A stretch of DNA of 64,000 nucleotides from an uncultured Gemmiger sp. (GTDB lineage: Bacteria; Bacillota; Clostridia; Oscillospirales; Ruminococcaceae), in NCBI GenBank assembly GCA_944386495.1, contig CALXBE010000005.1, positions 49,389 through 113,388 of the forward strand, read 5' to 3'. Every line of letters begins with the position of its first letter. The stretch's first letter is position 1. Shown here one piece after another: positions 40,386-43,788 of the stretch. The notes beneath the pieces were generated by a model. That model did no database searches, had not been told where the DNA came from, and saw nothing but the letters and a program-made list of their open reading frames with translations. The translations under genes and the position numbers were made by a program.

Positions 40386-40401
40386 TAAAGTAAATCCATT
40401 T

Positions 40402-40443
40402 AAAAAGACTGCCCCCGCTTCGGATATTCCGGAGCGGGGGCAG
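40402..40443 (-). terminator. Terminator of the bil-like operon
   Basis: Arms CTGCCCCCGCTTCGG (40409-40423) and CCGGAGCGGGGGCAG (40429-40443) form a long hairpin with one wobble. On the minus strand it is followed by a T-run (plus-strand AAAAA at 40402-40406), so it ends the flavodoxin-containing operon. On the plus strand no T-run follows. Confidence 0.85.
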
Positions 40444-40463
40444 AAGCGTAAGGAAAATCCTTT

Positions 40464-40955
40464 TCAGGATAGCGTAGAGGAGAGGGCGGCTTTCAGCCGG
40501 GCCAGGTCCCCCTCATCCGGGTGGGAGAGGGCCTGGTCAAAGTTTTCCAGCATGGCGGTCCGCCGGGGACTGTCCTCCATGACCTGATACCGGTCACGGA
40601 CAGCCTGGGGCATTTTCCCCTGGCACATATACTGCCCGGCCAGCTTGACCTGAGAGGGCAGCAGGGCAGAGACCCGGCCCAGGATCTGGTCAAAGTAGGC
40701 GGGAGAACCGCCGAACCCGGCGGTGCCGAACAGGAACACCTGCTGGCCGGTGAGGGTTTTCAGGAAATCAGCCACGGACTCATCGCAGCTGCCTTTGTCA
40801 GTCCAGAATCCTACATAAAGGGTCTGGGCTTCCAGAGCCTTGGGGTCGGGCTGACCAAAATAAATGCACTCTTCCGGGGGCAGAGCCTCCCGAATGGTCT
40901 GAGCCAGCAGGGCAGTGTTGCCGGTGCGGCTGGAAAAAACAATGGCGTAGCTCAT
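40464..40955 (-). CDS. bilS: Flavodoxin family protein, BilS-like
   Basis: The 163-residue protein starts MSYAIVFSSRTGNTALLAQ, where SSRTGNT is the FMN phosphate loop of flavodoxins. It also has TLYVGFWTDKGSCDE, VFLFGTAGFGGSPAYFDQIL and a C-terminal helical tail with MCQGKMPQAVRDRYQ. It overlaps the reductase gene by 4 bases, so the two are coupled. In the bilirubin reductase operon of gut bacteria a flavodoxin of this kind (BilS) accompanies BilR and probably helps supply electrons. The symbol is assigned mainly by operon context. Confidence 0.78.
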   Translation of the reverse strand: MSYAIVFSSRTGNTALLAQTIREALPPEECIYFGQPDPKALEAQTLYVGFWTDKGSCDESVADFLKTLTGQQVFLFGTAGFGGSPAYFDQILGRVSALLPSQVKLAGQYMCQGKMPQAVRDRYQVMEDSPRRTAMLENFDQALSHPDEGDLARLKAALSSTLS

Positions 40956-42064
40956 AGGAATTCCTCCTTTTCAAAGATGCAGCGGGCGCCCTGGTGGGAC
41001 ATCATTCCCTTGAGGCATTGGTTGCACCGCCGGCAGAAATTTATACCCCTGACCTGACCGGAAAAGGCCTTCCGGGGCCAGGCTGGGTCAGCCAGAAGTG
41101 CCCGGCTGAGGGCGGCACAGTCTATCCGCCTCTGGGCCAGCTGCTCTTCCACAAAATCAGGATGGGTCAGTCCGCCTACCCCGCAGATGGGGAGCCGGGT
41201 CAGGGAACGGACCTGGTCGCAGAACTTGAGGAAACAGCCCTCCTCCCCAAAATCCGGGTGGTTCTTGGGCGGGATGGTGTCGGACAATTTCCCGTGGTCG
41301 GCCAGGGTCACATGAAAACTGGTGACACCGGCTTTTTCCAGCAGGGGAACAAAGACGGAAAGCTCCGATTCAGGGACCCCGGCTTTCCCGTAGTGGGGGT
41401 CTTCCTGAATCACTGCCAGCTTGTAATCAATGGGTATCTGGGGAAGGGCTTCCCGGATGGCGGACACGGCCTCCACTCCAAACCGGGCCCGATTCCGGGC
41501 GCTTCCCCCGTACTGGTCGGTGCGGCGGTTGAAGTAGGGGGAACTGAAACTGCCGCACATCCGGTCCCCGTGGACCTGGACCATGTCAAACCCGGCCTGG
41601 ACAGCCAGCTGGGCCGCCTGACCGAAAGCCTGGGTGATTTGGGAGACCCTTTGGGCGGAAAGGCCGGTAATGTAGGGGCCCACCTCCTGATTCAGAAGTT
41701 CCCGCAGCTGGTCGTGGGAAATCTTTTTGGTCAGCACTCCGGGAAGATATTTCACCATCCCTTTGATATTGGAATCGGACTGGTGAAGCTGGGCGCAGAG
41801 AAGGCACCCTTCCTGGTGGACTGCCTGGGCCAAAGCCTGGTAAAAGGCAAATCCCTTTTTGGTGTAAAGGGAAGGCCCGAATTTCTGGGGCAGCACCGGC
41901 ACATCGCCCAGGATGATCATGGAGCAGCCCCCGGCGGCAACCTGCCGCAGTTTCTCAATAAGGGCCTGCCCGGAAAGTCCCAGGGTGGTGGGGGCAAAGA
42001 TGATTCGGTTTTTTAAGGTGATTCCCCCATAGTTGACGGGGGTGTTCAGGGATTGGCAGATGAT
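40952..42064 (-). CDS. bilR: Candidate bilirubin reductase BilR (short old-yellow-enzyme type)
   Basis: The ~370-residue flavoprotein has an OYE TIM barrel: TPVNYGGITLKNRIIFAPTT at the N-terminus, VQVHGDRMCGSFSSPYFNRR, then YGGSARNRARFG, and a C-terminal GVGGLTHPDFVEEQL. The usual HGYL of OYEs is replaced by HGDR; an Asp-Arg pair here is, as I recall, the diagnostic of BilR. A CRRC-x2-C cluster plus a later Cys suggests Fe-S binding. The second FAD/NADPH domain of 2,4-dienoyl-CoA reductases is absent. No ATG, GTG or TTG exists in frame from 42127 down to 41920. The start given is ATC 42064, 6 bases after AGAGGG. Starting at ATG 41920 would lose the first barrel strand. Confidence 0.8.
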   Translation of the reverse strand: MICQSLNTPVNYGGITLKNRIIFAPTTLGLSGQALIEKLRQVAAGGCSMIILGDVPVLPQKFGPSLYTKKGFAFYQALAQAVHQEGCLLCAQLHQSDSNIKGMVKYLPGVLTKKISHDQLRELLNQEVGPYITGLSAQRVSQITQAFGQAAQLAVQAGFDMVQVHGDRMCGSFSSPYFNRRTDQYGGSARNRARFGVEAVSAIREALPQIPIDYKLAVIQEDPHYGKAGVPESELSVFVPLLEKAGVTSFHVTLADHGKLSDTIPPKNHPDFGEEGCFLKFCDQVRSLTRLPICGVGGLTHPDFVEEQLAQRRIDCAALSRALLADPAWPRKAFSGQVRGINFCRRCNQCLKGMMSHQGARCIFEKEEFL

Positions 42065-42471
42065 GTTCCGCCCTCTTTCTTTTGTATTTTTGCCAGAAGG
42101 GCGAAAAGCTGTTCCTGCTCCGGTTGGCTAAGAGCGGAAAGGACTTCCTGGTCCCAGTCGAAAAAGACCTGGTGACTTACCTGAAAGGCTTCCTGGCCCT
42201 TGTCGCTCAGTTCCAGATGAAAGGCCCGGCCCTCTTTGGCCCGGGTGAGGAAGCCATCCTCTACCAGCCGGGTAATGCACCGCTGAGAATACCCCCAGTC
42301 CATCCCCAGGGCAGCGGTAAGCTGGGCCTGGGTGCAGCCGGGGTGCTTCCCTACATAAATCACCGGGAAAAGGGAACCGAAACTCAGCCCCAGCTCCTGG
42401 AGCCTTTCGGAGGTGTAAGCGGTAAACTGGCGGTGAAACCGGGTGGTATAGTAGGCTAAGGTCCCAAACAT
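42046..42471 (-). CDS. bilQ: MarR family regulator, BilQ-like
   Basis: The 141-residue winged-helix protein has the MarR shape: an N-terminal dimer helix, HTH around GCTQAQLTAALGMDWGYSQRCITRLVEDGFLTR, the wing KEGRAFHLELSDKG and a C-terminal dimer helix (LSQPEQEQLFALLAKIQKK). It is first in the operon and its end overlaps the reductase start region. Two palindromes in its promoter are probable autoregulatory sites. The ligand is not known; bilirubin or a tetrapyrrole is a reasonable guess. In described bil operons a MarR-type gene, bilQ, occupies this place. Confidence 0.85.
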   Translation of the reverse strand: MFGTLAYYTTRFHRQFTAYTSERLQELGLSFGSLFPVIYVGKHPGCTQAQLTAALGMDWGYSQRCITRLVEDGFLTRAKEGRAFHLELSDKGQEAFQVSHQVFFDWDQEVLSALSQPEQEQLFALLAKIQKKEGGTSSANP

Positions 42472-42488
42472 GGATCTTCACTCCTTTT

Positions 42489-42533
42489 ACTTGACTAGGT
42501 CAAGTATACTCCAAAATCTTGACGAAGTCAAGT
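42489..42533 (-). promoter_or_regulatory. bil operon promoter with two MarR-type operators
   Basis: On the minus strand, TTGACT (42531-42526), a 17-base spacer and TATACT (42508-42503) form a good promoter. Two 17-base palindromes overlap it: ACTTGAC-N3-GTCAAGT at 42489-42505, covering the end of the -10 and the transcription start, and TCTTGAC-N3-GTCAAGT at 42517-42533, covering the -35. Their centres are 28 bases apart. This layout fits direct repression by a MarR dimer at each site. Confidence 0.82.
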
Positions 42534-42571
42534 GTTTTGCCTGCTTTTTTTCGGGAAAACCGGGCGCAGCC

Positions 42572-42601
42572 TTGCAGGAAAATAGGAATCTATGGTATTA
42601 T
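42572..42601 (+). promoter_or_regulatory. Promoter of the AI-2E family permease gene
   Basis: TTGCAG (42572-42577), an 18-base spacer and TATTAT (42596-42601) with a TGG extension. Confidence 0.6.
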
Positions 42602-42669
42602 AACGATAATTGAAATTCCCTGTCTTTTAATGTAACAACCAGGACAGGGCAAAAGGAGTAAAAAAGTAT

Positions 42670-43788
42670 ATGAAGTGGGGAAAGCCTTGGTTATACCTTA
42701 TAGGTGCGGCGGTTCTTGTCCTGATGATCAAGTACAGCGACGCCATCATCCAGGGGGGAAGCTCCCTGATTTCCATTATCACTCCCATGCTGGTGGGCTG
42801 TGCCATCGCCTATGTGCTGAATATTCTGGTGGATAAGGTGGAATCCCTTCCGCCCTTCCGGAATGAGACAAGTCCTCTGTATAAAGGCCGCCGGGCCATC
42901 AGCATCCTTGCATCCCTGGCAGTGCTGATTCTGACTGTGGTACTGCTGGTCCTCATCATTATCCCTCAGCTGGTGGATGCGTTCCGGGTGGTCCTGGCAG
43001 GCATTCCCCCTCTGCTGGAGCAGATTTCCAAGTGGGCGGTGGAGCAGGATATCGCCCTGCCTGAGATTCAGACTTGGCTCAGCGGGGTAAACTGGTCCCA
43101 GATGGCGGAAAAAATCATCAGCTCCTTCACCATGGGAATCGGCAGCCTCTTCAGTTCCACCGTCACCATCCTCAGTGGGTTGGGCAGTGTGCTGGTACGG
43201 ACCGTAGTAGGGTTCATTTTTGCCCTTTACCTGCTGGCCGGAAAGGAAAAGCTGGGCGGCCAGATTCGGATTCTGGCCCGTACTTACCTGAAAGAGAAAA
43301 CCTGCCGGAAGCTCGCTTACCTGTTCCACACTGCCAACGATGTGTTCACCCGGTTTATTGTGGGCCAGTGTACTGAGGCTGTCATCATCGGGGCGCTCTG
43401 CACCCTGGGCATGATCCTCTTCCGGTTCCCCTATGCCACCATGGTGGGTGTCCTGATCGGTGCTACCGCCCTTCTCCCCATTGTGGGTGCTTATCTGGGC
43501 GCGGGAATCGGCGCATTCATGATTTTCACCGTCAATCCTCTCCAGGCTGTGGCTTTCCTGATTTTCATTGTGGTCCTCCAGCAGCTGGAAGGCAACCTGA
43601 TTTATCCCCGGGTGGTGGGCTCCTCCATCGGCCTGCCCGGAATCTGGGTGCTGGCGGCAGTCACCGTGGGCGGCGGCCTGGGGGGAATCGTGGGTATGCT
43701 TCTGGCAGTGCCTGCCACCGCTACCGCATACAAGCTGATTCGGCAGGATGTGATTCGGCGCAAGTCCGGTCAGCAGCCCGAAAATTAA
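42670..43788 (+). CDS. AI-2E family transporter (YdiK/PerM-like permease)
   Basis: The 372-residue protein has about eight hydrophobic helices and a central soluble segment. Family marks are AYVLNILVDKVE in the first part, VGFIFALYLLAGKEKL before the DVFTRFIVGQCTEAVIIG segment, and GSSIGLPGIWVLAAVTVGGGLGGIVGMLLAVPATAT near the end. The family exports autoinducer-2 in E. coli (TqsA) or exchanges ions; the role here is unknown. It is monocistronic with its own promoter and terminator. Confidence 0.9.
   Translation: MKWGKPWLYLIGAAVLVLMIKYSDAIIQGGSSLISIITPMLVGCAIAYVLNILVDKVESLPPFRNETSPLYKGRRAISILASLAVLILTVVLLVLIIIPQLVDAFRVVLAGIPPLLEQISKWAVEQDIALPEIQTWLSGVNWSQMAEKIISSFTMGIGSLFSSTVTILSGLGSVLVRTVVGFIFALYLLAGKEKLGGQIRILARTYLKEKTCRKLAYLFHTANDVFTRFIVGQCTEAVIIGALCTLGMILFRFPYATMVGVLIGATALLPIVGAYLGAGIGAFMIFTVNPLQAVAFLIFIVVLQQLEGNLIYPRVVGSSIGLPGIWVLAAVTVGGGLGGIVGMLLAVPATATAYKLIRQDVIRRKSGQQPEN

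Follow-up and report, generated by a model that had tools for sequence, protein, structure and literature searches.

Does a compact gene cluster in an uncultured Gemmiger species encode the bilirubin-reducing bilQRS system, and, if it does, what would the cluster make and how would it be controlled? The cluster lies in a 64,000-nucleotide stretch of DNA (the window), in which an earlier note had claimed MarR, old yellow enzyme (OYE) and flavodoxin genes in an overlapping minus-strand arrangement; coordinates and overlaps are as claimed there. The features of the locus are as follows.

42046–42471, minus strand: bilQ, MarR-family regulator of 141 amino acids; ATG start; NF045593; predicted MarR fold.
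40952–42061, minus strand: bilR, short bilirubin reductase (OYE TIM barrel) of 369 amino acids; inferred ATC start at 42059–42061.
40464–40955, minus strand: bilS, flavodoxin-like putative electron carrier of 163 amino acids; ATG start; NF045594; Pfam Flavodoxin_3.
41561–41572, minus strand: HGDR active-site motif, H164 G165 D166 R167, from alignments.
40979–41035, minus strand: C-terminal four-Cys cluster, C-x2-C-x2-C-x11-C, from alignments.
42518–42532, minus strand: candidate operator 1, perfect palindrome CTTGAC-TTC-GTCAAG, containing the −35 box.
42490–42504, minus strand: candidate operator 2, perfect palindrome CTTGAC-CTA-GTCAAG, adjoining the −10 box.
42503–42531, minus strand: predicted promoter TTGACT-17-TATACT, from a consensus scan and aligned blocks.
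42059–42064, minus strand: two ATC codons, the second of which (42059–42061) aligns with the ATG of relatives.
40409–40443, minus strand: terminator hairpin 3′ of bilS followed by a T run, from RNA folding.

The open OYE frame of bilR spans 40952–42064 on the minus strand, sharing 4 nt with bilS (ATGA at 40952–40955) and, if bilR starts at 42061, 16 nt with bilQ. The entire stretch around the hairpin, 40396–40470, folds at −34.8 kcal/mol; the consensus scan of the window did not list this hairpin. The divergent neighbour (42670–43788, plus strand) encodes an AI-2E-transporter-family protein according to Pfam, with a score for NCBIfam YtvI under the cut-off.

Each of the three proteins scores above its curated NCBIfam cut-off: BilR scores 521.5 bits against NF045592 (cut-off 425), BilS 222.4 bits against NF045594 (cut-off 155) and BilQ 162.3 bits against NF045593 (cut-off 125). 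With E-values of 1.1e-156, 2.7e-66 and 4.9e-48, a chance match is excluded. BilR is a single-domain protein of about 370 amino acids, with bilS next to it and bilQ directly upstream; its frame stops at 40952, leaving it devoid of the second FAD/NADPH domain, as had been proposed. The assignment of bilS as a flavodoxin likewise holds, its product being above the NF045594 cut-off and containing a Flavodoxin_3 domain. BilQ scores 26.3 against Pfam MarR_2, just below the family cut-off of 27, and its model (mean pLDDT 88.9) has the MarR fold of PDB 3S2W and 3BPX, at 20% identity to both. Curated family models, motif alignment and tree all agree with the proposed bilQRS assignment. By its sequence, the locus is an authentic, ordinary member of the known, medically interesting system published in 2024 (PMC10769871), and that the three genes form a bilQRS operon, identity and reaction taken together, can be held with high confidence. 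As in the bilQRS of C. symbiosum and C. difficile (PMC10769871), the MarR, OYE and flavodoxin genes stand together, BilR is short, HGDR is present and the FAD/NADPH domain is absent; E. coli carrying bilRS of C. symbiosum or C. difficile showed activity (PMC10769871). The window differs from C. symbiosum in having ATC rather than ATG at bilR, a Cys loop shorter by one residue, and perfect rather than degenerate paired operators.

The HGDR motif that had been reported for the reductase is encoded at 41561–41572 (residues 164–167, counted from 42061). The Asp-Arg signature given in the earlier note is correct, the pair occupying residues 166–167 as in the BilR paper (PMC10769871), where mutation of R. 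gnavus BilR indicated its importance. HGDR occurs in 80 of 80 named relatives, a count partly built in, since HGDR formed part of one search pattern out of two. At the aligned place, the genome's own OYE paralogue C7 has CHGYL and 1PS9 has GSEGYL. The latter structure, the 2,4-dienoyl-CoA reductase FadH, is the best structural match of the BilR model (E 1e-21; TM 0.75 by query length; 25% identity), although FadH has extra domains and a Tyr where BilR has the Asp-Arg pair (PMC10769871). Paralogues C2 and C7, tried as BilR or BilV candidates, were rejected: they are without HGDR and AHAH and below the NCBIfam cut-offs. The C-terminal Cys cluster is kept, as had been claimed, in that all four cysteines are present, but its spacing is altered: C-x2-C-x2-C-x11-C, as against the 4Fe-4S spacing C-x2-C-x3-C-x11-C of relatives; the other 16 rows of the alignment carry an additional residue between the second and third Cys. 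The shortened spacing is common to the three rows of this genus; in the BilR model, pLDDT is under 50 from residue 347, covering the Cys loop.

A maximum-likelihood tree of BilR, which the earlier note had suggested, was built from 48 rows (the window's BilR together with 33 named short sequences, out of 80, and 14 others), without the C. difficile and R. gnavus proteins. It places the window within the short-BilR clade together with Clostridium symbiosum, with 99/99 support; the clade comprises 34 rows including C. symbiosum ATCC 14940, the assayed strains of that species having been others. Outside it fall the other OYEs, long BilR and four short proteins, of which two have HGDR but score below the cut-off and two lack HGDR; the five outermost rows (L002, L003, L035, L036 and L037) carry a long-branch warning, and their order is unsure. 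Long BilR (R. gnavus type, NF045599) has the HGDR TIM barrel in common with the window's protein, but forms a separate clade and has flavodoxin-like and NAD(P)H domains that the window's BilR lacks. The nearest BilR is that of L044, from an uncultured Clostridia metagenome-assembled genome (96% identity), the next in the clade is L052 (71%), and identity to BilR of C. symbiosum ATCC 14940 is 59%. Of the 297 genomes of the GTDB family, 22 contain a protein above the BilR cut-off, the short form in 16 of these. Viral contigs, scanned once, yielded no relative, and all plasmid matches were under 60% identity (34% for the best-ranked), so there is no sign of a mobile carrier. Among the other sequences, the short OYEs L032 and L033 are sister to the short-BilR clade and have LGGH or LGGN replacing HGDR; two bilR copies (L010 and L065) have an in-frame stop, near the C-terminal end in L010, and a third (L034) matches in three pieces.

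What the organism would make depends on a second enzyme. BilR reduces methine bridges only, vinyl groups being reduced by BilV, so that BilR alone yields divinyl-urobilinogen and full urobilinogen requires BilV (preprint 2026, PMC13252198); bilV is also present in 0.4% of species with short bilR (PMC13252198). BilV belongs to the OYE family and to the same pathway, and has AHAH where the window's BilR has HGDR (PMC13252198). A stand-in, L035, picked by its AHAH motif alone, served as the BilV query. Its best match in the three genomes of the genus was 34% identical, no AHAH reductase was among the matches, and the best match in the window's genome has HAVHEGYL where AHAH was expected; the search found no BilV-type vinyl reductase in this genome, which is 81% complete, or in two congeners. 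The proposal that the organism makes urobilinogen therefore needs qualifying: the BilR-type reduction is expected, full urobilinogen probably not. Since BilR alone reduces methine bridges and BilV was not found, the product is probably divinyl-urobilinogen.

The pigment that enters this reaction may differ from the one originally proposed. Biliverdin may take the place of bilirubin as the natural substrate, as it does in the guts of birds, a possible though less favoured reading: C. difficile BilR-S acts on biliverdin and short BilR accounts for 71–89% of bilR in avian metagenomes (both PMC13252198), and several relatives bear chicken-gut names (gallinarum, merdavium, pullicola). Yet the same enzyme class accepts both pigments, and the alternatives are not exclusive.

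The novelty of the locus resides in the control of its genes. Upstream of bilQ, two perfect CTTGAC-N3-GTCAAG palindromes, 28 bp apart, flank the promoter, and these are the only perfect copies in 1.89 Mb of the genome. The promoter scan, which alone proves nothing, found 2 promoter-like sites in the stretch, and shuffled sequences gave 0.9 ± 1.0; the TATA element and the half-sites are near-invariant across 55 aligned blocks. A pair, defined as two sites with at most two mismatches each and 26–29 bp apart, was found at 62 of 79 named bil loci (those of the 80 with an upstream stretch), with a single site at 10 and none at 7, and in 0 of 3,950 dinucleotide shuffles. Loci with no operator at these thresholds are C. 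symbiosum (L107), L112, L102 and L120, plus the bilQ-less L104, L113 and L122; L107 and L112 carry weaker, degenerate pairs at 27 bp. Seven loci have bilR without an adjoining bilQ ahead of it, and at 4 of them the pair precedes bilR itself. No paired operator was found at eight loci with long bilR or an AHAH reductase (0 of 5 for long bilR).

An exact double-site search of the 297 family genomes, allowing R at one position per palindrome, returned 16 places in 15 genomes, and the reversed pattern none. At 15 of the 16 the gene directly downstream is bilQ-like or bilR, and 11 of these places precede bilQRS or bilRS. Four further contexts were recognised by eye: a bilQ–bilS pair without bilR between (L130 and L138); bilQ with the gene of a small membrane protein behind it (L128, confirmed as L149); a bilQ-like start whose frame breaks off near a contig end (L134); and a small membrane protein alone (L139). 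L130 lies in genome G081, which has a long BilR elsewhere (L027), and L138 lies in G031. The alignment of the window with L044 breaks off within a base of operator 1. The intergenic sequence beyond it (42534–42669) is strongly diverged from that of this 96% relative, both flanks being conserved. A wider BilQ regulon in the window's own genome was considered and rejected: single palindromes with up to two mismatches number 134, and the reversed control gives more (220), so single imperfect sites mean nothing; one site with one mismatch, L006, lies inside an aminotransferase-like gene, as judged by eye.

The protein that binds the paired palindromes is very probably BilQ, and repression by BilQ at these predicted sites is highly likely. 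As the sites sit over a promoter, autoregulation by repression is the simplest reading: two BilQ dimers would occupy the palindromes, over the −35 box and beside the −10 box, and a bile pigment or related molecule would release BilQ from the DNA. That this ligand is a bilin is favoured with moderate confidence. In the literature searched, published mentions of BilQ come without an operator and no description of one was found; among the matches listed for the half-site letters together with MarR, none was evidently about such an operator, and the preprint PMC13252198 does not mention BilQ.

In some relatives the operator also marks a hydrophobic protein of about 108 residues, present in 15 of the 297 family genomes and without a Pfam or NCBIfam match. 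Its gene follows bilR–bilS in 3 of the 15 and a bilQ-like gene (34–61% identical to the window's) in 5, and stands alone behind a paired operator (at most one mismatch per site) in 4; the remaining 3 show neither context, one of them having a single site with two mismatches. Among the 80 named loci, it comes just after bilR or bilS in 5; in L093 and L099 it follows bilR, with no bilS detected. The loci concerned are L139/L140, L128/L149, L148, L150–L152, L156–L161, L117, L121, L085, L093 and L099. The protein was not found in the window's genome (81% complete) or in G189, and the preprint PMC13252198 contains no mention of 'membrane protein' or 'transporter'. On a reading of its sequence it would cross the membrane four times, and one may guess that it moves bilins.

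A second layer of control may lie at the start of bilR. The first ATG, GTG or TTG in the 40952–42064 frame is the Met codon at 41920, so bilR needs a non-canonical start. The second ATC of the window (42059–42061) aligns with the ATG of relatives, and an AAAG stretch lies 13 nt upstream of the start in the window, in L044 and in three relatives with ATG. ATC stands at this aligned position in all three genomes of the genus, L044 and L052 being identical to genus genomes G110 and G189 over the compared stretch. A canonical codon stands at the aligned position in 73 of the 80 named bilR genes and one codon earlier in 3, and is absent within eight codons in four (L044, L052, L046 and L119); no bilQ gene (of 72) and no bilS gene (of 69) is missing a canonical start within two codons. 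In L046 (Faecalibacterium gallinarum) and L119 (Anaerorhabdus furcosa), ATT is, by eye, suitably spaced from a sequence resembling a ribosome-binding site. Likewise by eye, infC of three genomes of the genus (L172, L173 and L174) has no canonical start and an ATC behind GGAGGTG. According to PMC5472188, Streptomyces infC starts at ATC and such starts are repressed by IF3; like infC and sigR there, the window's bilR has a start other than ATG, GTG or TTG, but it is a catabolic enzyme gene overlapping the gene of its regulator.

Initiation at AUC in this genus is weighed against a start elsewhere, an unlikely alternative, namely at the CTG of codon 5, at Met 41920 or by frameshifting out of bilQ. 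A gene caller limited to ATG, GTG and TTG chooses Met 41920, and in L022, the same sequence here as L044, the frame is open upstream through bilQ. Starting at 41920 would, however, remove 47 residues whose match to the family profile begins almost at the start of the profile. Against L052, change in these residues resembles that in the remainder of the gene: codons 2 to 48 contain 27 differing codons in 47 (11 silent, 16 not), and the remainder 146 in 282 (69 silent, 77 not), whereas the same frame upstream of the ATC has 3 silent and 16 non-silent differences in 24 codons. Against L044 the counts are 1 silent and 2 non-silent of 47, too few to tell, and 24 and 7 of 282 for the rest. In-frame stops precede the start in the window and in L052, and codon 5 is ATA in L052, while ATC is common to all three. 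Translation of bilR from AUC is therefore the likely reading of these alignments. Such a start, lying within the 3′ end of bilQ, would keep BilR scarce and its synthesis sensitive to IF3. If the AUC start is right, gene callers limited to the three canonical codons shorten BilR by 47 residues, which would mislead cloning.

The same features could also mark decay, BilR having lost its ATG and an Fe-S-loop residue so that a regulated operon yields little active enzyme; this is very unlikely. The ATC start and the shortened Cys loop do occur in the same three genomes, and in ungapped comparisons the dN/dS of bilR (0.15 against L044, 0.28 against L052) exceeds that of bilQ (0.08 and 0.09) and bilS (0.09 and 0.21). 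Even so, 0.15 and 0.28 remain purifying, HGDR and all four cysteines are retained across 29% protein divergence, and the bilR frames are open in all three genomes. Judged by these ratios, bilR is under purifying selection. Also very unlikely is an HGDR flavoenzyme for another substrate with incidental bilin reduction, for although short HGDR proteins under the cut-off (L030 and L031) exist outside the clade, all three genes have equivalog-level scores and the operon is complete. L030 and L031, which lie outside both short BilR and the non-HGDR group, may represent an early BilR branch.

BilR reduces bilirubin for excretion, and bilR is often absent from the metagenomes of young infants and, compared with healthy adults, is missing more frequently in patients with Crohn's disease or ulcerative colitis (PMC10769871); a trigger that switches the bil genes on was not found in the literature searched. 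We tentatively propose that BilQ is a bile-pigment-responsive autorepressor acting through two palindromes that flank one promoter, with a small regulon that in some relatives includes a membrane protein, perhaps a bilin carrier. In this genus bilR would also be restrained by a weakly read, IF3-controlled AUC start, a device that, among the bilR genes examined, could have evolved as many as three times (in the genus and, with ATT, in F. gallinarum L046 and A. furcosa L119). The earlier suggestion that the regulator is a tetrapyrrole sensor is now testable because of the paired operator. The conserved double operator is a DNA target for finding the BilQ ligand; it also marks further genes of the pathway and yields a membrane-protein candidate.
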